Shown here in pieces: positions 6,839 through 18,187 of a DNA stretch of 39,481 nt (positions are counted from its first letter, which is position 1; each line of letters opens with the position of its first letter). Both the position numbers and the translations under genes were made by a program. A model generated the notes under the pieces. The model had not been told where the DNA came from and searched no databases. It was given only the letters and a program-made list of their open reading frames with translations. Source of the stretch: Methylococcaceae bacterium. Lineage in GTDB: Bacteria > Pseudomonadota > Gammaproteobacteria > Methylococcales > Methylomonadaceae. The DNA lies in the NCBI GenBank assembly GCA_013141375.1, contig JABFRC010000062.1:1-39481 (forward strand). The letters run 5' to 3'.

Positions 6839-7786
6839 TTATCCGACGTGTCTTTTTAATTCTTTCGGTAAAGAGAAGACAACTTTTTCTTCAATGCCTT
6901 GGATTTCAACAGTCGTTTGGCCGCCCCATTGTTTTAGTTGGCTGATGACTTCTTGAACCAATACTTCAGGTGCAGATGCGCCGGCGGTAACACCGACAGT
7001 GGCAATGCCATCAAACCAATCTTGGCGCATGTCTTTGGCCGTGTCGATCAGGTAGGAGCGTTTACCGAGTTGCTCGGCGATTTCTCTCAGACGATTTGAG
7101 TTGGAGCTGTTTGGCGAGCCAACGACCAGGATGATGTCAGCAATTTTTGCCAATTCGTGGACTGCGTCCTGACGATTTTGCGTCGCATAACAAATATCAT
7201 CTTTCTTTTGTTCCTGAATCGACGTAAAGCGGGCGCGCAAAGCATCCACCATGATTTTGGTGTCTGTCATCGACAGGGTGGTTTGAGTGACATAAGCCAG
7301 ATTATCAGGATTATTCACTTTCAAGTTTGCCACATCGTCAGGCGTTTCAACCAAGTAAATATCGCCATTTTTGGTGGCTTTTTCATATTGACCCATCGTG
7401 CCTTCGACTTCCGGATGACCGGCATGACCAATCAGGATGACTTCGCGGTCGGCTTTGGCATGTTTGGCGACTTGGATATGCACCTTGGTTACCAGCGGGC
7501 AAGTTGCATCAAATACTGTCAATTTGCGATCGTGAGCTTCTTTCTGCACTTGTTTGGAAACACCGTGAGCGCTAAAGATAAGCGTTGAGCCCACAGGCAC
7601 ATCGGTTAAGTCTTCAATAAAGATGGCGCCTTTTTCTTTGAGTCCATCGACCACAGTGCGGTTATGAACCACTTCATGACGCACATAAATCGGTGCACCG
7701 AAGGTTTCGATGGCTTGATCAACAATTTCAATGGCACGGTCGACACCGGCACAAAATCCACGGGGGTTGGCGAGTACAATTTGCAT
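6839..7786 (-). CDS. ispH: 4-hydroxy-3-methylbut-2-enyl diphosphate reductase
   Basis: This is the last enzyme of the MEP isoprenoid pathway; it reduces HMBPP to isopentenyl and dimethylallyl diphosphate using a 4Fe-4S cluster. The 315 residues match the family. The three cluster cysteines can be located in [22 protein letters not shown] and [12 protein letters not shown]. The substrate-binding histidines are in RHEVVHN, FSAHGVS and [12 protein letters not shown], and the [10 protein letters not shown] loop is intact. The gene is downstream of rraA (36-base gap) and upstream of the rhodanese gene. ispB at 25519-26532 uses the products of this pathway for the quinone side chain. Confidence 0.97.
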
Positions 7787-7822
7787 ATCTTGAGTTCTTT
7801 GGTTGGTTAATATGGAGTTATT

Positions 7823-8308
7823 CTAACTCAACATCGTTTCCGAGACGATAATTCCATCGGAATCGACATAGATGTAATGGTCTTTTTTAAAGTTCACGCC
7901 GGCAAAGCTCAAGACCAAGTCGCGGTCGCCGCGATTCTTTTTATGGCTTTTCAATGGGTGGGTGTGCAAAGCGCGGATACCGATCGGCAATTGATCGATA
8001 ATGGCCGAATCGCGAATACAGCCATACACAATGATACCTTCCCAGCCATTGTCTATTGCCAGTTGGGCGAGGTTGTCACCCAAAAGCGCGCAACGATGAG
8101 AGCCGCCACCGTCAATGACCAGCACACGATTGCTAACTTTTTCTTCCAGCACGGTTCTGACCAGGACATTGTCTTCAAATACTTTGACAGTGGTAATCTG
8201 GCCGCAAAAACTGGTCTTCGCGCCATAAACTTTGAACATCGGCTCGGCAATCTGAAAGTGGCTTTCTTCTGAATGCGCGTCGCAAAGACTGGCAGTTGTA
8301 AAGGTCAT
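7823..8308 (-). CDS. rraA: Ribonuclease E activity regulator RraA
   Basis: This is an RraA-family protein of 161 residues from the ATG at 8308 (MTFTTASLCDAHSEE). In E. coli RraA binds RNase E and inhibits it, changing global mRNA decay; more distant members of the fold are aldolases or decarboxylases. Family landmarks are AEPMFKVYGAKTSFCG, VLVIDGGGSHRCALLGDNLA, GIIVYGCIRDS and GIRALHTHPLKSHKK. A TTG five codons upstream is open but less likely: GAGG in the upstream DNA is nine bases from the ATG and overlaps that TTG. The gene follows trhP by 21 bases and probably belongs to the same transcript. Confidence 0.92.
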   Translation of the reverse strand: MTFTTASLCDAHSEESHFQIAEPMFKVYGAKTSFCGQITTVKVFEDNVLVRTVLEEKVSNRVLVIDGGGSHRCALLGDNLAQLAIDNGWEGIIVYGCIRDSAIIDQLPIGIRALHTHPLKSHKKNRGDRDLVLSFAGVNFKKDHYIYVDSDGIIVSETMLS

Positions 8309-8329
8309 GGGAACTAGCCTCAATTCAGG

Positions 8330-10159: not shown

Positions 10160-11989
10160 TCACACTGAAGACACGATTTCAATCAAGACTTCATCCGGGT
10201 TAGCCGGTTCACCTTTAACTACATGTACGGCTTTCACAATACCGGTAATGGGCGCTGTCACTTCTGTTTCCATTTTCATTGCTTCAGTGATTAACACTGC
10301 CTGTCCCGCAGTGACTGTCTGACCGACTTTGACCAGCACATCAAGAATATTACAGGGCATACTGACCACCACATCGCCTTCCGCGGAAGGTTTTGCACGT
10401 TTGCTGGAAATAGTGCTTTTAACCGCACCTTGAGTGCCGCCATCCAGAACGATTTCGTCCAGGGTTTCTACAACGATATCTTCCGGTACGCCGTCCACCA
10501 TGAAATAAAAATGCCGTAGTGTTTGATTTTTGGGACCGGCACCAGTGACTTTGACGTGGTATGACTCACCATGTAAGGCCACATTAAATTCAGTTGGGGC
10601 TGTTTTAACCGCATCAACCGCTTTTGATTCCAATTCCAAAGGTTCAGGTATCAGTGTGTTATTGGAGCGTTGTTCTAAAAATAGCTTACCCACTTCGGGG
10701 AACATGGCATAACTCAAAACATCTTCATCGTTACGTGCCAGACCACCGATTTCATGACGAAGATTTTCAAATTCCGGTTTAAGTAAATCGGCCGGGCGGC
10801 AGTCGATGACTTCTTCTTTGCCTATCGCACGTTTTTGTAAATCGCTGTCTACAGTTGCCGGGGCCTTACCGTAGCCGCCTTGTAAGTAGCGTTTCACTTC
10901 ATTGGTAATGGTGTCATAGCGTTTACCCGTTAATACATTGAGAACCGCCTGGGTACCGACAATCTGAGAAGTCGGTGTTACCAGGGGCGGATAGCCCAGA
11001 TCTTTACGAACTAGCGGAATTTCTTTATAGACTTCAGCAATGCGATCCAGAGCATTTCGTTCTTTCAATTGATTGGCTAGATTGGAAATCATGCCGCCGG
11101 GCACCTGGAATACGTGTACTTGCGTGTCGATTCCGGTAAATTCACTCTCGTAACGATGATATTTTTTCCTGACCTCGGCAAAATAACTGTTGACCGCCTG
11201 AAGCTTATCCAAATCCAGACCGGTGTCGTAAACGGTACCCCGCAATGCGGTTACCAGGCTTTCGGTGGGTGGGTGACTGGTGCCGCCTGCCCAGGATGAC
11301 AACGCCGTATCGACATATTGACAACCGGCTTCGATGGCTTTGAGTTGGCACATCTCCGCTAATCCGGATGTGGCATGAGTATGTAAATGCAAGGGCAGAG
11401 CGACGGCATCTTGTAGGGCTTTGACCAGCTCGCTTGCCACATAAGGCGTTAACAAGCCCGCCATATCCTTAATCACAAGGGAATCACAACCCATTTCAGC
11501 CAAGCCTTTACCTAGTGTGACAAAACTGGCGACATCATGTACCGGGCTGGTGGTGTAGCAAATAGTCCCTTGGGCGTGTTTGCCGGAGGCTTTGGTGGCT
11601 TCGATAGCGGTTTTAAGATTGCGGATGTCGTTAAGGGCATCAAAAATCCGAAACACGTCCATGCCGTTGTCGGCGGCCTTGGTAATAAATGCCCGCACCA
11701 CATCGTCAGAATAATGCCGATAGCCTAGTAAATTTTGCCCGCGCAACAACATTTGTAAGCGTGTTTTAGGCAGCGCAGCTTTGAGTTTTGTTAAACGTTC
11801 CCAGGGATCTTCTTTTAAGAAGCGTAAACAGGCATCAAAGGTCGCGCCGCCCCAGCATTCCAAAGACCAATAGCCAATATCATCAAGCATGGCGCAGCCC
11901 GGTAACATGTCTTCGGTGCGCAGCCGGGTCGCGATTAACGATTGATGAGCATCGCGAAGAATAACGTCAGTAATATGAACTTTTTGCAT
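10160..11989 (-). CDS. pycB: Pyruvate carboxylase subunit B (carboxyltransferase plus biotin carrier; OadA-like)
   Basis: This 609-residue protein pairs an HMGL-like carboxyltransferase domain with a biotin carrier. The carboxyltransferase domain (about 1-300) has ILRDAHQSL near residue 10, FRIFDALND, and the metal-binding LHLHTHATSG. A conserved linker domain ends near 470. The C-terminal biotinyl domain has EAMKMET, with the biotinylated lysine near residue 572. The same architecture serves in sodium-pumping oxaloacetate decarboxylase (OadA), but the neighbour upstream is a biotin carboxylase and no oadB or oadG lies nearby. Two-subunit pyruvate carboxylase (pyruvate + bicarbonate + ATP to oxaloacetate) is therefore the better call. 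The start lies 15 bases after the pycA stop, with AAGGA upstream. Confidence 0.9.
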   Translation of the reverse strand: MQKVHITDVILRDAHQSLIATRLRTEDMLPGCAMLDDIGYWSLECWGGATFDACLRFLKEDPWERLTKLKAALPKTRLQMLLRGQNLLGYRHYSDDVVRAFITKAADNGMDVFRIFDALNDIRNLKTAIEATKASGKHAQGTICYTTSPVHDVASFVTLGKGLAEMGCDSLVIKDMAGLLTPYVASELVKALQDAVALPLHLHTHATSGLAEMCQLKAIEAGCQYVDTALSSWAGGTSHPPTESLVTALRGTVYDTGLDLDKLQAVNSYFAEVRKKYHRYESEFTGIDTQVHVFQVPGGMISNLANQLKERNALDRIAEVYKEIPLVRKDLGYPPLVTPTSQIVGTQAVLNVLTGKRYDTITNEVKRYLQGGYGKAPATVDSDLQKRAIGKEEVIDCRPADLLKPEFENLRHEIGGLARNDEDVLSYAMFPEVGKLFLEQRSNNTLIPEPLELESKAVDAVKTAPTEFNVALHGESYHVKVTGAGPKNQTLRHFYFMVDGVPEDIVVETLDEIVLDGGTQGAVKSTISSKRAKPSAEGDVVVSMPCNILDVLVKVGQTVTAGQAVLITEAMKMETEVTAPITGIVKAVHVVKGEPANPDEVLIEIVSSV

Positions 11990-12004
11990 GTGATTTTCCT
12001 TTTG

Positions 12005-13423
12005 TTACAAGCCGGTATGGGCCGCCATCACAGCGGCAATAACGCTGGCCAGCACTTCGGGCCGGGGTTTATTGGAGTAATTAACAAGTTCGGGATACTT
12101 CTCGACAAAGCCGGTATTAAAGCTTGCAGCCCGAAAATCAGGGTGTTTGAGAATTTCCAGGTAATAAGGGATGGTGGTTTTAATGCCAAACAAGCCCATA
12201 TCTTTTAATGCTCGTTCGCCGCGTTTGATGACGTCTTCCCAGGTCAGTGCGCTGACAATCACTTTGGCCAGCATGGAATCGTAAAAAGGCGGAATTTCAT
12301 AACCGGTATAAATTGCAGTATCGGTACGCACACCCGGTCCGCCGGGGGCATAGTAGCGGGATATCCTGCCAAAGCTGGGTAAGAAGCTGTTTTTTGGATC
12401 TTCCGCATTGATCCGAAACTGCATGGCATAACCCCGCCGAACAATTTCGTGTTGTTTAAAGCGCAAGGTTAAACCGGCCGCCACGCGTATCTGTTCTTCG
12501 ACGATGTCTACACCTGTTACTGTTTCGGTGATGGTATGTTCGACCTGGACACGGGTATTCATTTCCATAAAATAAAAACGATCTTTATCATCCAGCAGAA
12601 ATTCGACAGTGCCCGCATTGGTATATCCCACCGCCTTGGCTGCTAATACTGCAAGCCCACCAATGTATTGGCGTTGCGCTTCATCCAGTTGCGGCGAGGG
12701 TGCAATTTCAATCAACTTTTGGTTGCGTCGTTGAATCGAACAGTCGCGTTCGTAAAGGTGAATGGTATTGCCGTGATGGTCGGCTAATACTTGAACTTCA
12801 ATATGTTTAGGATTAACCACGCATTTTTCCAAAAACACATCGGCGCTGCCAAACGCTTTGGTGGCTTCAGAAATAACGCGTTTAAAATTATTCTGCAGTT
12901 CATCAGCATTATCACAGCGTCGAATGCCGCGGCCTCCTCCGCCGGAGGTAGCTTTGAGCATAATTGGATAGCCAATTTTTTCGGCCACACTCAGAGCATG
13001 TTCAACACTGTCCAGATTACCGTCCGAACCCGGCGTTACCGGAATGCCGGCCGCAATCATGGCTTTTCTGGCTTCGGTTTTATCACCCATGCGATGGATG
13101 ACATCCGCCTCCGGCCCGATAAAAGTAATACCGCGTTCTGAACAGACTCTGGCGAATTGAGCGTTTTCTGAAAGAAAACCATAGCCAGGGTGAATGCCAT
13201 CACAGCCAGTTGCCGCCGCCAAATCCACCAAGGCATGAATGTTAAGATAGCTGGCGACAGGTTCATTGCCGATGCAATAAGACTCGTCGGCTTTTTTAAC
13301 ATGTAGACCGAACCGGTCAGCATCGGAATAAATAGCAACAGACCTTATGCCCATTTCGGCGCATGCACGAATGATACGAACCGCGATCTCACCTCGATTG
13401 GCTATTAAAATTTTACGTAACAT
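12005..13423 (-). CDS. pycA: Pyruvate carboxylase subunit A (biotin carboxylase)
   Basis: This is an ATP-grasp biotin carboxylase of 472 residues that uses ATP and bicarbonate to carboxylate the biotin on PycB. Landmarks in order are ILIANRGEIAVRIIRA at the N-terminus, IHPGYGFLSENAQFA, the glycine-rich ATP loop TSGGGGRGIR, YERDCSIQRRNQKLIE and FYFMEMNTRVQVEHT. An extra C-terminal segment beyond the 450 or so residues of AccC is typical of PycA. An AccC role in fatty acid synthesis is less likely, because AccC normally sits next to accB, which is absent here. GAGAGGG seven bases before the ATG is a good ribosome binding site. It is followed by pycB and preceded by a tetR gene 62 bases upstream. 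Confidence 0.92.
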   Translation of the reverse strand: MLRKILIANRGEIAVRIIRACAEMGIRSVAIYSDADRFGLHVKKADESYCIGNEPVASYLNIHALVDLAAATGCDGIHPGYGFLSENAQFARVCSERGITFIGPEADVIHRMGDKTEARKAMIAAGIPVTPGSDGNLDSVEHALSVAEKIGYPIMLKATSGGGGRGIRRCDNADELQNNFKRVISEATKAFGSADVFLEKCVVNPKHIEVQVLADHHGNTIHLYERDCSIQRRNQKLIEIAPSPQLDEAQRQYIGGLAVLAAKAVGYTNAGTVEFLLDDKDRFYFMEMNTRVQVEHTITETVTGVDIVEEQIRVAAGLTLRFKQHEIVRRGYAMQFRINAEDPKNSFLPSFGRISRYYAPGGPGVRTDTAIYTGYEIPPFYDSMLAKVIVSALTWEDVIKRGERALKDMGLFGIKTTIPYYLEILKHPDFRAASFNTGFVEKYPELVNYSNKPRPEVLASVIAAVMAAHTGL

Positions 13424-13452
13424 ACAGATGCCCTCTCTACAAAAATGTTGTC

Positions 13453-13482
13453 GGTATAGCCATGCGTTTTTTGTATTGCCAA
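13453..13482 (-). promoter_or_regulatory. Candidate sigma-70 promoter of pycA-pycB
   Basis: On the minus strand TTGGCA (13477-13482) and TATACC (13453-13458) are 18 bases apart, placing a start about 22-25 bases before the pycA ATG. This would allow pycAB to be transcribed independently of tetR. The -10 hexamer is only a fair match. Confidence 0.4.
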
Positions 13483-13485
13483 CAG

Positions 13486-14163
13486 CTAGGTCTTTTTTAG
13501 GCTGGAAAAAACCAAGTCTTCCAGGAACTTTACAATTTCTGCTTCATCCTTGTTGTCAGCAAAGTCAGTGAGTGACGGGAGGTTTTTCATAAAAAAATTC
13601 TGGAAATGCGCCATTTCAATAATGGTGGACGCCAACGATTTTGGATAAAGGTAGTTTGGTGAGCACTCCAAAATCATATTGCCAATAATGGCGCAAAGGT
13701 CTTTATAGGGTTTAAACAGCTGGTCTTTATTATCTTCAGATACCCGTTTCGTCAGATAGGCTTTAGTACCTTCGGTAATAATGATTTGATGAAGAATGTT
13801 TTTATCCACATGCGGTGTGCTGACATTGTCTTCTAGTGTGGTTGCCAGCAATTTAATCACCATTTTGATCTTTACCACGGGGTCTTGAATATTGTTGGTA
13901 TGGAAAGAAACCTGGTACTCAAGCCAGCTCCAATACCAGGCAGTCAGGTAGATCAGCAATCGGTGCTTGTTTTCAAAATACCGGTAAATGCCGGCTTCAG
14001 TCGAGCCAATATCAATAGCCAGCTTTTTAAACGTAAAGGCCTCAAAGCCATTTTTATAAATTAACTGAATGCTGTCCTGAATGATTTTTTTGCCCAGTTC
14101 GGATTGCTCCGGATCCCTGAGAAATAATTTTTCATTCATTTTGATTTGTAAATGTATGTCCAT
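13486..14163 (-). CDS. TetR/AcrR-family transcriptional regulator
   Basis: This is a predicted DNA-binding repressor of 225 residues. The TetR-type helix-turn-helix lies near residues 24-75 (IIQDSIQLIYKNGFEAFTFKKLA, then recognition-helix region STEAGIYRYFENKHRLL). The C-terminal ligand domain is variable and not assignable to a ligand. The ATG at 14163 has AGG five bases upstream. It is divergent from the bestrophin gene, and a 29-bp inverted repeat lies at 14269-14297 in the shared 213-base region. It is also 62 bases upstream of pycA on the same strand. From its position it may control the bestrophin/carbonic anhydrase pair, the pyruvate carboxylase genes, or both. Confidence 0.88.
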   Translation of the reverse strand: MDIHLQIKMNEKLFLRDPEQSELGKKIIQDSIQLIYKNGFEAFTFKKLAIDIGSTEAGIYRYFENKHRLLIYLTAWYWSWLEYQVSFHTNNIQDPVVKIKMVIKLLATTLEDNVSTPHVDKNILHQIIITEGTKAYLTKRVSEDNKDQLFKPYKDLCAIIGNMILECSPNYLYPKSLASTIIEMAHFQNFFMKNLPSLTDFADNKDEAEIVKFLEDLVFSSLKKT

Positions 14164-14268
14164 AGCCGCCTGATTTAGCGTTGTTATCTTAATTTAAGTC
14201 ATTAAAGTGATTGTGTTACAGGGACTAAAGCATGTCCGTGGAAAAAGAATAACAGAGAGTATTGCAAC

Positions 14269-14297
14269 CTGTAAAGATAGTGTTACTATCTTTACAG
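14269..14297. promoter_or_regulatory. 29-bp inverted repeat, probable TetR operator
   Basis: CTGTAAAGATAGT and ACTATCTTTACAG are perfect 13-bp arms around a 3-base spacer. The site lies between the divergent tetR and bestrophin genes, 79 bases before the bestrophin ATG. A possible -35 (TTGCAA, 14263-14268) abuts it and a -10-like CTATCT (14286-14291) lies inside it, so an occupied site would block that promoter. Confidence 0.7.
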
Positions 14298-14376
14298 AAT
14301 AGCACTGCTTATTTTCGCTGTGGGCGGCAACGCGCTAACAATGAACTCTAAAATTTTGCTCTTAAGGGATAGAAAT

Positions 14377-15300
14377 ATGAAAGATTCTGCACAATTACAT
14401 AGCAACAAGGATGAATCACCCGGTTTTTTGCGTGGCGCTCTCATGTGGCGCGGTTCAGTATCACCGCGCATTTTCTCCAGCCTGCTGTTAATGACTTGTT
14501 ACTGTTTGTTAATAGTTGCCTTAGATCAATACTGGCGCCCCTTACCGCATCTTGCTGTGACTCCGTTTGAATATACCGGCGTGGTACTCGGTTTGGTTCT
14601 GGTGTTTCGAACCAACACCGGTCACGAGCGTTGGTGGGAAGCCAGAAAATTATGGGGAGGTATTGTTAATCAAAGCAGAAACCTTGTTATTGGGGCATTA
14701 AATTACGGTGAGGTTTTGAATATCGGCCCGCAAGAAAGTCTATGGCGTAAAGAGATGGTGAAGTGGTCGATTGCATTTTCTTTTGCCGCTAGAGAATCCC
14801 TGCGTAATAGCAGAAACCTGGAAGAGTTAAACGATTTACTGAGCCAACAGGAGCTTGAGACTTTAAAGGCTGCTGGCCACATGCCGCTGTTTGTTGCCAG
14901 CAAAATAGCGTCACTAATACAGCAAGGACGGATTAGCCATCATATCGATGGCTTTGTTTTTGAGAAGCTGGAAGGACAACGCATTCTGCTGATTGATCAC
15001 ATTGGTGCCTGTGAAAGAATCCTTAAAACGCCTATGCCATTGGTTTATGCCATTAAAGCCAGACGGTTTATTTTGATCTTCTTATTATTGCTGCCGTTTT
15101 CGTTAATAGAAAATTTGGGATTCAGTGCAGTGTTTATTTATTTTCTAGTCGCTTATCCATTATTGTCTTTGGACAGAATTGGTATTGAACTACAAAATCC
15201 ATTCGACACCCAAAATTTAAGCCACTTACCTTTGCACACTATTTGCGACAGTATAAAACTTCATTGTCTGGCGTTGCTGGAACAGTCGCAACTTGGTTGA
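14377..15300 (+). CDS. Bestrophin-family anion channel
   Basis: This is a predicted inner-membrane protein of 307 residues of the bestrophin/UPF0187 (YneE) family, pentameric channels for anions such as chloride and, for some eukaryotic members, bicarbonate. The start ATG at 14377 is chosen because AAGGGA (14364-14369) is eight bases away; upstream in-frame starts lack this. Family signatures are RGSVSPRI near residue 25, FRTNTGHERWWEARKLWGG at 77-95 and NPFDTQNLSHLPL near the C-terminus. Four hydrophobic segments fit the fold. A beta-carbonic anhydrase gene follows 107 bases downstream, and a TetR gene is divergent upstream. Transport of bicarbonate is an inference from this context only. 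Confidence 0.88.
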   Translation: MKDSAQLHSNKDESPGFLRGALMWRGSVSPRIFSSLLLMTCYCLLIVALDQYWRPLPHLAVTPFEYTGVVLGLVLVFRTNTGHERWWEARKLWGGIVNQSRNLVIGALNYGEVLNIGPQESLWRKEMVKWSIAFSFAARESLRNSRNLEELNDLLSQQELETLKAAGHMPLFVASKIASLIQQGRISHHIDGFVFEKLEGQRILLIDHIGACERILKTPMPLVYAIKARRFILIFLLLLPFSLIENLGFSAVFIYFLVAYPLLSLDRIGIELQNPFDTQNLSHLPLHTICDSIKLHCLALLEQSQLG

Positions 15301-15407
15301 ATGCAGACAGACGATGAGAGTAATGCACAACCGAAAAAATAGACGATCAAATATGTAAATTTAATGAAACGGACTAAAAGAAAACCTCACTTCTAAGGCA
15401 CACAAAA

Positions 15408-16058
15408 ATGAAAACTTTAACCAAAGAAATGCAAGCTTCAATTACACCCGCAATGGCATTAGATTTATTAAAAGAGGGCAATAAACGCTTTGTCAATAAC
15501 CTTAAAATAAACCGCAATCTACTGCAACAGGCCAATGAAACCTCAGACGGGCAACACCCGTTTGCGGTTATTTTAAGTTGTATAGATTCCCGTACCTCCG
15601 TTGAGTTGATTTTTGATCAGGGCCTGGGCGATGTGTTTAGTGTGCGAATTGCCGGCAATATTATTAACGAAGATATTCTGGGCAGCATGGAGTTTGGATG
15701 CAAAGTCGCTGGTTCTAAAATCATCGTGGTGTTAGGCCATAGCAAATGTGGCGCGATAAAAGGCGCTTGCGACCATGTGGAAATGGGCAACCTGACAGCT
15801 CTGTTAAGCAAGATACAGCCTGCGGTTTATGATGAAAAAACCGTGACAGAAAAACGGAATTCAGACAACGGGGAATTCGTTGAAAAAGTAGCCGCCATTA
15901 ATGTAAAAAGAACCGTACATGCCATTATGGAACGCAGCCCAATTTTAAAAGAAATGATTGAAACTGGAGCCATAGGGATTGTTGGCGGCACACACGACAT
16001 AGCAACGGGTGAAGTCAGTTTTTATAATGAGACCTTGATTTTTAACAATCCTAATTAA
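15408..16058 (+). CDS. Beta-class carbonic anhydrase
   Basis: This is a zinc enzyme interconverting CO2 and bicarbonate, 216 residues. The zinc ligands and dyad of the beta class are intact: C58 and D60 in SCIDSRTS with R62, and H111 and C114 in GHSKCGAIKGA. No signal peptide is evident, so it should be cytoplasmic. AAGG lies about ten bases before the ATG. It follows the bestrophin gene on the same strand and is probably in the same operon. The pair fits supply or disposal of bicarbonate, and the nearby pyruvate carboxylase consumes bicarbonate. The 3' spacer to recD (152 bases, convergent) holds only a weak hairpin near 16078-16093. Confidence 0.93.
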   Translation: MKTLTKEMQASITPAMALDLLKEGNKRFVNNLKINRNLLQQANETSDGQHPFAVILSCIDSRTSVELIFDQGLGDVFSVRIAGNIINEDILGSMEFGCKVAGSKIIVVLGHSKCGAIKGACDHVEMGNLTALLSKIQPAVYDEKTVTEKRNSDNGEFVEKVAAINVKRTVHAIMERSPILKEMIETGAIGIVGGTHDIATGEVSFYNETLIFNNPN

Positions 16059-16210
16059 GGACGCTTACAAGGTAAAGTGGACTCCGTCGTCCAGACAAAT
16101 ATTCAGCCAGTTTAAGATAGATGCCCGCTTACAATATTCCAATGTGCAACTCGAAAGACGGGGTGGTTATTACCGATCCTATTTTTTCTTCCAGCAGGCG
16201 GGCATTTTCA

Positions 16211-18187
16211 TTACTTACAACTCGCCAAAATCCCAAGCTTAAACACATCCGCGTTACTCTCCAGCAAGGTAAAGCTTTCTTTGGCTCGGGTGATGCCGGT
16301 GTAGATCAGTTCGCGGGTGATGACGGGGCTGCGCTGTTCGGGCAATACCAGGGCGACGTGGTTAAATTCCGAGCCTTGCGATTTGTGTACCGTAATGGCA
16401 AACGCGGTTTCCACATCCGGCAGGCGCATGGGTGATATCCAGCGAATTTGTACTTCTGACAAGGGATCATCGCTGGGGAAGGCGACTCGTAGTTTGCCGG
16501 TCTGGTCTTTAAGAGCGATGCCGATATCTCCGTTCATCAAGCCCAGGTTGTAATCATTGCGGGTGATCATCACGGGGCGGCCTTCATACCAGAGACTGGG
16601 TTTTTGTTTAGGAAACAGCCAGGTTTCAATGCGCTGATTCAGGCCTTCAATGCCCCAGAAACCTCGTCGCAAAGCGCATAACACCTGAAACGAGTCAAAT
16701 GCTGTCAACACCTGCTTCGCCCAACTATCGTAATCGCCGCTTGCTGTGGGACGATGGCTTTCGATGATGTTCAGATAATAGCCATAACCCTGGCGCGGCT
16801 TCGATTTGCCGTTGTCTTCGCCATGATTAAAAATCACCAACTTGTGGAGTAGGTCGTTTGCAGCCTCTGTGTTTGGTTGCTCTCTAAACTTTAAATACGC
16901 CGAGCGTTGTTCGGGAACCAAGTCGGAATAGTGGTCGGTGTCCGATAAAATCGATAGGGCAAGCTTGGCATCTCCTCGGTTGACGGCTTTGGCCAATTGA
17001 CCGATGCCGCTATGCTCGTTAAAGCGATGGCTATAGCGAAGCATGACGGTTTGTTGATTGATGTTGGAGCCTGCAGTTTCAGGCGCCTGAATAGTTTGAC
17101 TGGCATAACGACTTATCCATGCTCTGGTGTCGTCGTCATAAGCGGCTATGTCCGCACCTTCGCATAAATCCCCCATTACCGAGCCCGCTTCGACGGAGGC
17201 CAGTTGGTCCTTGTCGCCTAATAAGATCAGCTGGGTGTTGTCCGTTAAGGCGTCCAGTAGCGATGCCATCATTTCCAGGTCGATCATTGACGCTTCATCG
17301 ACAATCACGATGTCTGCGACGAGGGGATTGTGGCGGTTATGGACAAAACTGCGCGAGCCATGACGGCTGCCGAGTAAGCGATGCAATGTGGCGGCTTTTT
17401 TGGGGATGGCTTGTTTGATGTGCTCATCGATTGCCAGCGTATTGACTGCCTTACCGATAGATTCACTTACCCTGGCTGCCGCTTTGCCGGTGGGCGCGGC
17501 GAGCAAGATAGTCAGATGTTTGCTGTGCTTGTTTTCGTGTTCGCTTAAATGAATCAACAAGGCCAGCAGCTTGGTCAGGGTTGTGGTTTTCCCTGTGCCC
17601 GGACCACCGGTGATGATAGAAAACCGGGCGCGCAATGCCAACACACAGGCGATTTTTTGCCAGTCTGGTGTTTCGATTGGCTGAGTAAACAAGTTGTCTA
17701 AGTGGCCTAACAAATCCTCGGGCAAGTCATCCCGAATTGGCTGCAAACGCTTTTTTATGCAAGAGTTGAGAATTTGTTGATATTGCCAGTAGCGCCTCAA
17801 ATAAAGCCGATTGCCTTCCAGAACCAGTGGTGTATTGCCTTCACCAGCGTTTACCAGCTTGGAGTGAGTGAGCGCCGATTGCCAGTCTGCAAGGCTGTTG
17901 TTTAGTGTCGATAGTTCGGTGTGAGCGATGTCATGCTCGGCTGACCAAGCGTCATCGCTTGGGATTGCCAGCGTTAAGCCAGGATGGGTACAGAGTTTTT
18001 TCAGGTCGAGATAGACTTCGCCTCGATCGAGTTGATGGCTGACCAGCGCGCCTGCCCAAAGCACAGTATCGGATGCGTCCTTGTTTTGATCTTGCAGGAA
18101 ACGGACAAAGGCCCGGTTTAACTGACTCAGCCAGCCACGGGCAATCCATGAATCAATCTGTTCAAGTACGGATAAGCGTCGGCTCAC
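16211..18187 (-). CDS. recD: Exodeoxyribonuclease V subunit alpha
   Basis: This is the 5'-3' helicase subunit of RecBCD, 658 residues. Superfamily 1 motifs are present: Walker A IITGGPGTGKTTTL near residue 195, Walker B IVDEASMID, motif III LLGDKDQLASVEAG, and the C-terminal TVHKSQGSEF with GITRAKE. The start is GTG at 18187, overlapping the recB stop by four bases (GTGA), which implies translational coupling. It is the last gene of recC-recB-recD and converges on the carbonic anhydrase gene. Confidence 0.96.
   Translation of the reverse strand: MSRRLSVLEQIDSWIARGWLSQLNRAFVRFLQDQNKDASDTVLWAGALVSHQLDRGEVYLDLKKLCTHPGLTLAIPSDDAWSAEHDIAHTELSTLNNSLADWQSALTHSKLVNAGEGNTPLVLEGNRLYLRRYWQYQQILNSCIKKRLQPIRDDLPEDLLGHLDNLFTQPIETPDWQKIACVLALRARFSIITGGPGTGKTTTLTKLLALLIHLSEHENKHSKHLTILLAAPTGKAAARVSESIGKAVNTLAIDEHIKQAIPKKAATLHRLLGSRHGSRSFVHNRHNPLVADIVIVDEASMIDLEMMASLLDALTDNTQLILLGDKDQLASVEAGSVMGDLCEGADIAAYDDDTRAWISRYASQTIQAPETAGSNINQQTVMLRYSHRFNEHSGIGQLAKAVNRGDAKLALSILSDTDHYSDLVPEQRSAYLKFREQPNTEAANDLLHKLVIFNHGEDNGKSKPRQGYGYYLNIIESHRPTASGDYDSWAKQVLTAFDSFQVLCALRRGFWGIEGLNQRIETWLFPKQKPSLWYEGRPVMITRNDYNLGLMNGDIGIALKDQTGKLRVAFPSDDPLSEVQIRWISPMRLPDVETAFAITVHKSQGSEFNHVALVLPEQRSPVITRELIYTGITRAKESFTLLESNADVFKLGILASCK

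Follow-up and report, generated by a model that had tools for sequence, protein, structure and literature searches.

The window analyzed here is the whole 39,481-nucleotide stretch of contig JABFRC010000062.1 from a Methylococcaceae bacterium (GenBank assembly GCA_013141375.1; 3.9 Mb in 373 contigs, 96% complete). It carries the pyruvate carboxylase genes pycA and pycB, preceded by a gene for a TetR-family regulator; facing them across an intergenic region are genes for a bestrophin and a beta-carbonic anhydrase (CA). CA makes bicarbonate from CO2, and pyruvate carboxylase (PYC) and phosphoenolpyruvate carboxylase (PEPC, encoded by ppc) are unrelated enzymes that both convert bicarbonate to oxaloacetate. 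An earlier interpretation made from the DNA letters alone, called the sequence-only reading below, had proposed that the five genes, with a palindromic operator candidate between the two arms, form a possible bicarbonate supply module for oxaloacetate formation. Profile matches placed all five genes where that reading had put them and in the families that it had named. The features of the locus are as follows (aa, amino acids; ORF, open reading frame).

10160 to 11989, minus strand: pycB, carboxyltransferase/biotin-carrier subunit of pyruvate carboxylase, 609 aa (PYC_OADA, HMGL-like, and Biotin_lipoyl)
12005 to 13423, minus strand: pycA, biotin carboxylase subunit, 472 aa (Biotin_carb_N, CPSase_L_D2, and Biotin_carb_C)
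13486 to 14163, minus strand: tetR, TetR-family regulator, 225 aa, upstream of pycAB and in the same direction (PF00440 TetR_N, E = 3.6e-7)
14261 to 14289, plus strand: candidate promoter, sigma-70-like, for bestrophin-CA (ATTGCA and TACTAT with 17 bp between them); it overlaps the operator, and its arrangement recurs in relatives
14269 to 14297, no strand assigned: putative TetR operator, CTGTAAAGATAGT-GTT-ACTATCTTTACAG, with the core GATAGTNNNACTATC at 14276 to 14290, kept upstream of TetR in relatives
14377 to 15300, plus strand: bestrophin, 307 aa from the ATG at 14377, the longest ORF running from the GTG at 14320 (PF25539, E = 1.1e-71)
15408 to 16058, plus strand: beta-CA, 216 aa (PF00484, E = 1e-38; NF011765, 249.5 bits)

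The five genes and the palindrome between them

The carboxylase is encoded by two separate, adjacent genes 15 bp apart, the organization of a two-subunit PYC. PycA scored 893 bits against NF005525 (cut-off, 768 bits). PycB passed the cut-offs of two NCBIfam models, NF006761 for pycB (881 bits) and TIGR01108 for oadA, the alpha subunit of oxaloacetate decarboxylase (840 bits). An oxaloacetate decarboxylase alpha subunit goes with beta and gamma membrane subunits and has no biotin carboxylase partner. Because the partner of PycB is a biotin carboxylase subunit, PYC is the better reading. The regulator contains a TetR_N helix-turn-helix (PF00440, 30.3 bits; cut-off, 24) and matched no named NCBIfam family at cut-off. 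Its matches among solved structures were weak and fell nearly all in the N-terminal half, the best being the TetR-family regulator 5k7f (E = 8e-7), and an AlphaFold model made from eight close homologs had a mean pLDDT of 46.5, too poor for the ligand pocket to be read. The tetR stop and the pycA start are separated by 62 bp in the window (65 bp by alignment) and by 24 to 68 bp, again by alignment, in the 15 loci measured.

On the other arm, the bestrophin matches the bacterial and fungal family PF25539 over residues 33 to 316. Its start is most likely the ATG at 14377, because the 307-aa ORFs of relatives at L031 and L028 begin at the same methionine (labels with L, G, and C are ours for loci, genomes, and contigs); the GTG at 14320 merely yields the longest ORF. 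The nearest bestrophin loci in named records are mostly from Methylobacter and uncultured Methylococcaceae, so that the host is probably a methanotroph similar to Methylobacter. The CA gene follows on the same strand after 107 bp. Beta-CAs have Cys-His-Cys zinc ligands and an Asp-Arg pair; residues C58, D60, R62, H111, and C114 are present in the window protein, and the CDRHC pattern is found in 80 of 82 matches. Searches of the window for tRNA genes and for Rfam families at the gathering threshold were empty.

The palindrome consists of two perfect 13-nucleotide arms around a 3-nucleotide spacer, and its center is 120 bp away from the start of tetR and 94 bp away from the ATG of the bestrophin gene. 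No second copy was found in the 3.9-Mb assembly at up to three mismatches, and shuffled versions of the window gave zero matches. In addition to the candidate promoter listed above, which would serve bestrophin-CA, one of the sites from a generic promoter scan of positions 13400 to 16230 (minus strand, 14275 to 14246) overlaps the left arm of the operator and would read towards tetR. That scan returned 5 sites, compared with 6.9 expected from shuffles, and the ATTGCA-TACTAT site was not among them; we treat the promoter assignments in this region as putative. A terminator scan of the same interval returned 7 sites, compared with 2.8 in shuffles, and 6 of the 7 lie within genes. A second half-site, TRCTAT, recurs in the window (14269 to 14330) and in relatives: of 25 instances found at +8 to +45 from the operator start, 23 sit at +28 or +29, which is 21 to 22 bp downstream of the operator's own half-site. 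This element may be a tandem binding site or a -10 element.

Conservation of the operator and exchange of the genes around it

Of the 237 family genomes, 52 have a TetR ortholog at E ≤ 1e-40. We searched the 240 bp upstream of TetR at 51 of these loci, L063 being without upstream sequence. The core GATAGTNNNACTATC was present exactly at 33 loci and with at most one mismatch at 43; the corresponding means in 200 shuffles were 0 and 0.02 loci. Four loci (L203, L214, L216, and L218) carry the core in a two-mismatch version only, and L199 has no version of it within the 240 bp. The operator candidate that had been proposed for the divergent intergenic region is a real palindrome, and it is conserved across genera.

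In whole-genome searches, 36 of the 52 TetR genomes had the core without a mismatch at the TetR locus, with a spacer that was always GTT, ATT, or GAT on either strand. Among 52 of the 185 family genomes without this TetR, 11 held an exact core, none with one of these spacers. The window's own genome has one exact site and 7 one-mismatch sites, equal to the control number of 7. When any exact core was counted, the total rose to 37 of the 52 TetR genomes. The additional genome, G085, has TetR at a SulP locus and, separately, an unlinked bestrophin-CA pair (L224, the same as L023) with an exact operator core; we read this pair as a putative trans target of TetR. It is the sole exception among the fetched bestrophin loci without TetR, at which the core was otherwise absent at up to one mismatch. 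Three further operator-like sites in TetR genomes (G116 C231, G024 C8, and G253 C19) also have a permitted spacer. They were considered as signs of a wider regulon and taken as background, because none of the module genes that were looked for is close to them.

The operator is kept whichever gene comes next. At the 52 TetR loci, the gene behind it is a bestrophin at 10, a SulP transporter at 20, CA directly at 10, an exporter set of ABC transporter, HlyD, and outer membrane factor (ABC-HlyD-OMF) at 6, and DUF6671-cysD-cysN at 1, with no gene or a contig end at the remaining 5. CA is found somewhere in the fetched stretch at 39 of the 52 loci, and in 17 of the 20 relatives with SulP in this slot it follows SulP, sometimes as a partial gene. 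The sequence-only reading had named conserved adjacency of the five genes in related genomes as a check; the set proved to be limited to a lineage, and the close relative G003 has SulP in place of the bestrophin, with pyc not adjacent. The cultured relative Methylobacter tundripaludum OWC-G53F (L031) carries most of the set, with pycAB, TetR, and bestrophin but no adjoining CA. A fragment of a bestrophin between TetR and CA in G206 and a 75-aa fragment of SulP in G183 mark transporter losses, as intermediates of decay.

The slot SulP of L057, the sole one tested, belongs to Sulfate_transp (PF00916) and did not reach the cut-off of the NCBIfam models sulP, DauA, and BicA (121 bits compared with a cut-off of 880 bits for BicA, NF050096). 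We did not keep the idea that the slot SulP is nearest to SulP-CA fusions: once the slot-type proteins are set aside, the family members that come next, about 50 to 57% identical, were a mixture of unfused and fusion-length frames among the matches listed. The loci at which TetR faces the export set are L208, L209, and L212 (in G135, G207, and G201) together with L062, L207, and L219, with Pfam applied to L208 only; at the first three, CA lies 528 to 637 bp past the export set. In addition, cysD, frequently accompanied by cysN and a DUF6671 gene, stands after the module or between ppc and bestrophin at L057 (8845 to 12237), L180, L182, L187, L189, L190, L194, L195, L224, and L241 to L244.

The carboxylase is exchanged as well. 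At 16 of the 52 TetR loci, from 6 genus groups, pycA lies beside TetR (at L199 only as a 60-aa remnant), and at 7 of the 52, from 2 genus groups, ppc (PF00311) lies 54 to 58 bp after CA on the same strand. All six combinations of slot and carboxylase occur at TetR loci: bestrophin with pyc (6) or ppc (3), SulP with pyc (4) or ppc (1), and CA only with pyc (1) or ppc (3). Other gene orders are SulP-bestrophin-160-aa ORF-CA-ppc in G231, which is without TetR and has ppc 31 bp after CA; SulP-CA-pycA-pycB (L248); CA-pycA-pycB (L257); pycA-pycB-CA (L214, L218, and L325, and partly L328 and L321); ppc-CA (L319); ppc-bestrophin (L230, L245, and L246); and ppc-cysD-bestrophin (L241 to L244).

We also counted neighbors within 5 kb, leaving out the window itself. 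A carboxylase gene lies within this distance of TetR in 27 of 51 relatives (ten genus groups), of CA in 27 of 74 cases, and of bestrophin in 17 of 34. The 27 loci with a carboxylase near TetR comprise 22 tight arrangements in eight genus groups and 5 that are looser or involve fragments or paralogs (L186, L194, L197, L201, and L202). Five genes from the flanks of the module in the window served as controls: ispH, rraA, the U32 peptidase gene, recB, and recD. Any of these was within 5 kb of TetR in 0 of 51 cases, of CA in 1 of 74, and of bestrophin in 1 of 34.

The window's own genome contains PYC and has no PEPC match at E ≤ 1e-60. At the same threshold, PEPC was not found in 14 of the 16 genomes with a pyc module, and pycB at 84% identity or more was not found in 6 of the 7 with a ppc module. 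The idea that a genome has either PYC or PEPC but never both was tested and rejected: among 65 genomes, pycB (at least 84%) occurs in 27, PEPC (at least 62%) in 27, and both in 7.

Outside the family, a different beta-CA, 26 to 32% identical to that of the window, lies directly upstream of a bestrophin gene on the same strand at 11 of 25 loci (L032 to L056), whose records are mostly from Planctomycetota and Obscuribacterales- or Melainabacteria-type bacteria. The pairing of bestrophin and CA is therefore not limited to the TetR module. A record labeled Candidatus Nitrotoga sp. 1052 (L028, 5157 to 9912) contains TetR-bestrophin-CA, 82 to 89% identical, followed by a Usp-family gene and SulP, which may reflect horizontal transfer or contamination. 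At L231 (956 to 4411, genome G012), rraA and ispH, both of which also flank the module in the window (6839 to 8323), have a bestrophin gene about 1 kb upstream.

Bicarbonate handling for oxaloacetate as the probable function, and its alternatives

Bicarbonate handling for oxaloacetate synthesis is the simplest purpose that CA could have in common with the exchangeable membrane protein and the exchangeable carboxylase arranged around one operator. We favor the interpretation that the locus is a regulated module that handles bicarbonate for the anaplerotic synthesis of oxaloacetate and give it a probability of about 0.62. TetR would bind the palindrome, which overlaps the putative divergent promoters, and repress bestrophin-CA; through the same palindrome it would autoregulate its own unit, in which tetR, pycA, and pycB are presumably cotranscribed. 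A putative signal of inorganic-carbon or C4-acid shortage would release TetR. CA would then turn metabolic CO2 into bicarbonate by hydration. The membrane protein that occupies the slot, a bestrophin in the window and SulP in many relatives, would carry either bicarbonate or a balancing ion through the membrane. Bicarbonate would be fixed into oxaloacetate by the linked carboxylase, PYC in the window and PEPC in some relatives, through its established enzyme chemistry. The supply theme of the sequence-only reading gained strength from the occurrence of CA, bestrophin, and TetR genes near PYC or PEPC genes in several orders and from the conserved operator; the five-gene set as such and the anion selectivity of the bestrophin were not supported.

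A broader proposal is a family-wide regulon in which one TetR and one operator would govern the bicarbonate economy of oxaloacetate synthesis, with bestrophin and SulP as interchangeable carriers and PYC and PEPC as interchangeable consumers. We hold it tentatively, at somewhat worse than even odds. If true, bicarbonate handling would be a natural role of a bacterial bestrophin, and the TetR would be a sensor of inorganic carbon or C4-acid demand.

Several observations weigh against bicarbonate handling for oxaloacetate, which is built on sequence and gene-neighborhood comparison. Both tight arrangements, pyc adjoining TetR and ppc immediately behind CA, are missing at 29 of the 52 TetR loci, and contig ends explain some of these. 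Five loci (L190, L191, L192, L198, and L215) have a transporter without CA beside it, and at the 6 loci with ABC-HlyD-OMF the slot is taken by an exporter. Unlinked bestrophins in the TetR genomes G110, G120, and G253 are without the operator; in G002 the site is cut by a contig end. A quick TetR tree of 49 rows requires 14 changes of slot label and 12 of carboxylase label, but it is weakly resolved, with 16 of its 45 inner branches open, and these counts are rough. Moreover, because the loci share ancestry, the neighbor and swap counts are not independent events, and the differing gene orders are a stronger argument than the counts.

The bestrophin itself is a further difficulty. The sequence-only reading had called it an anion channel, a label that its match to the bacterial and fungal Pfam family does not establish. 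According to the sections available of a bestrophin review, KpBest is a Na+ channel with the neck I-I-F, and Phe at the middle position favors chloride. The KpBest structures (4wd7, 4wd8, and others) are the nearest solved relatives of the window protein (E about 1e-36, residues 35 to 322). In the 326-aa numbering, its neck is V88-L92-F96, with Leu and not Phe in the middle. All 46 bestrophin matches with 54% identity or more, a count that includes some places twice, have Leu or Met at this middle position. Because of the V-L-F neck and the relation to KpBest, the sequence provides no argument for an anion channel, nor does it indicate selectivity for bicarbonate. With the membrane negative inside, a passive channel for anions would tend to cause bicarbonate loss rather than gain. 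Bicarbonate import through a passive bestrophin channel is doubtful, and export or charge balance is a live alternative because a passive anion path favors exit.

Export is central to an acid-base or CO2-disposal function, in which CA would form bicarbonate that bestrophin or SulP exports or exchanges for pH and anion balance during methane oxidation, the proximity of the carboxylase being secondary. A passive channel would suit export better than import. Human bestrophins pass bicarbonate, as stated in the available part of the review, and a bestrophin mutation in Methylobacterium was beneficial where chloride export limits growth, according to the excerpt available of that work. TetR-SulP-CA sets without a detected nearby carboxylase also exist (e.g., L060, L061, L206, and L210). 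We nevertheless consider this function unlikely to be the primary one, since it leaves unexplained why the same CA is repeatedly found in close, codirectional linkage, and in several gene orders, with two carboxylases that both form oxaloacetate but are unrelated to each other.

The presence of SulP and of cysD could instead point to uptake of sulfate or another oxyanion. In this case, SulP would be a sulfate permease, bestrophin an alternative oxyanion path, and the whole unit would belong with sulfate activation by cysDN. In 7 of 51 relatives cysD is found 5 kb or less from TetR, which, like the exporter in the slot, bicarbonate handling for oxaloacetate does not predict, and the orders SulP-CA-cysD-cysN (L057), bestrophin-CA-cysD (L224), and ppc-cysD-bestrophin (L241 to L244) fit such a unit. 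The score of the L057 SulP below the BicA cut-off also fits, with the qualification that it was likewise below those for sulP and DauA. We judge sulfate uptake improbable: cysD near TetR is confined to three genus groups (g1, g13, and g15), compared with ten for the carboxylase (eight with tight arrangements), CA is left without a role, and no cysD or cysN match adjoins the module in the window. Least probable of all is that the bestrophin is a KpBest-like sodium channel outside bicarbonate traffic and the five genes an inherited neighborhood with little common function, as the KpBest homology and the hydrophobic neck without a middle Phe would allow, since bestrophin and SulP are exchanged behind the same operator, a different CA directly precedes bestrophin at 11 of 25 loci outside the family, and the control genes do not travel with bestrophin.

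Comparison with known systems

The closest known counterparts are fusions and pairs of SulP with CA, in which, as in the window, a beta-CA adjoins or is fused to a transporter. In open frames of about 745 aa of the SulP-CA fusion type, the CA part shares about 60% identity with the window CA. The window's own genome also contains two adjacent SulP genes, and the open frame of the second, 746 aa long, extends into a CA domain (G000:C38, L251). The CA of the window is not itself SulP-coupled in the Felce-Saier manner: the adjoining membrane protein is the bestrophin, and a TetR operator and pyruvate carboxylase stand alongside. In the portions available of PMC11423575, which cites Felce and Saier 2004 for SulP-CA fusions, Methylococcus capsulatus is described as having five CAs, all induced by CO2 limitation and one in an operon with SulP (beta-CA3-SulP in strain Bath). 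A search of the text available from that paper found no mention of bestrophin, pyruvate carboxylase, or PEP carboxylase. Literature searches likewise yielded no description of the gene set or of the TetR-operator arrangement among the titles and abstract openings of the matches listed.

Bestrophins have been placed beside CA in algae. The part available of PMC6708349 presents the thylakoid bestrophins BST1-3 as proposed to deliver bicarbonate to a CO2-concentrating mechanism based on CAH3. The likeness to the window is a bestrophin proposed alongside a CA-based system; the difference, as far as that source extends, is that BST1-3 serve Rubisco via the thylakoid lumen, whereas the window bestrophin is bacterial, from a methanotroph, and linked to oxaloacetate-forming carboxylases. 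KpBest of Klebsiella is homologous to the window protein and differs in its neck, I-I-F with Na+ selectivity compared with V-L-F. The PYC has the same separate genes as other two-subunit PycA/PycB enzymes, with nothing unusual seen.

We file the coupling of CA to an anion transporter as known and the TetR operator and the linked carboxylase as the new elements. Bacterial bestrophin homologs were described as uncharacterized in the section available of a 2014 paper, and their role is still largely open; that bestrophin and SulP have replaced each other in nature behind a single conserved operator is a direct hint, and one open to testing. Since CAs affect growth and carbon yield in M. capsulatus (PMC11423575, in the portions available), a regulator that ties together CA, a transporter, and an oxaloacetate-forming carboxylase would be a useful control point, one that would aid both the understanding and the engineering of methane-to-biomass conversion.

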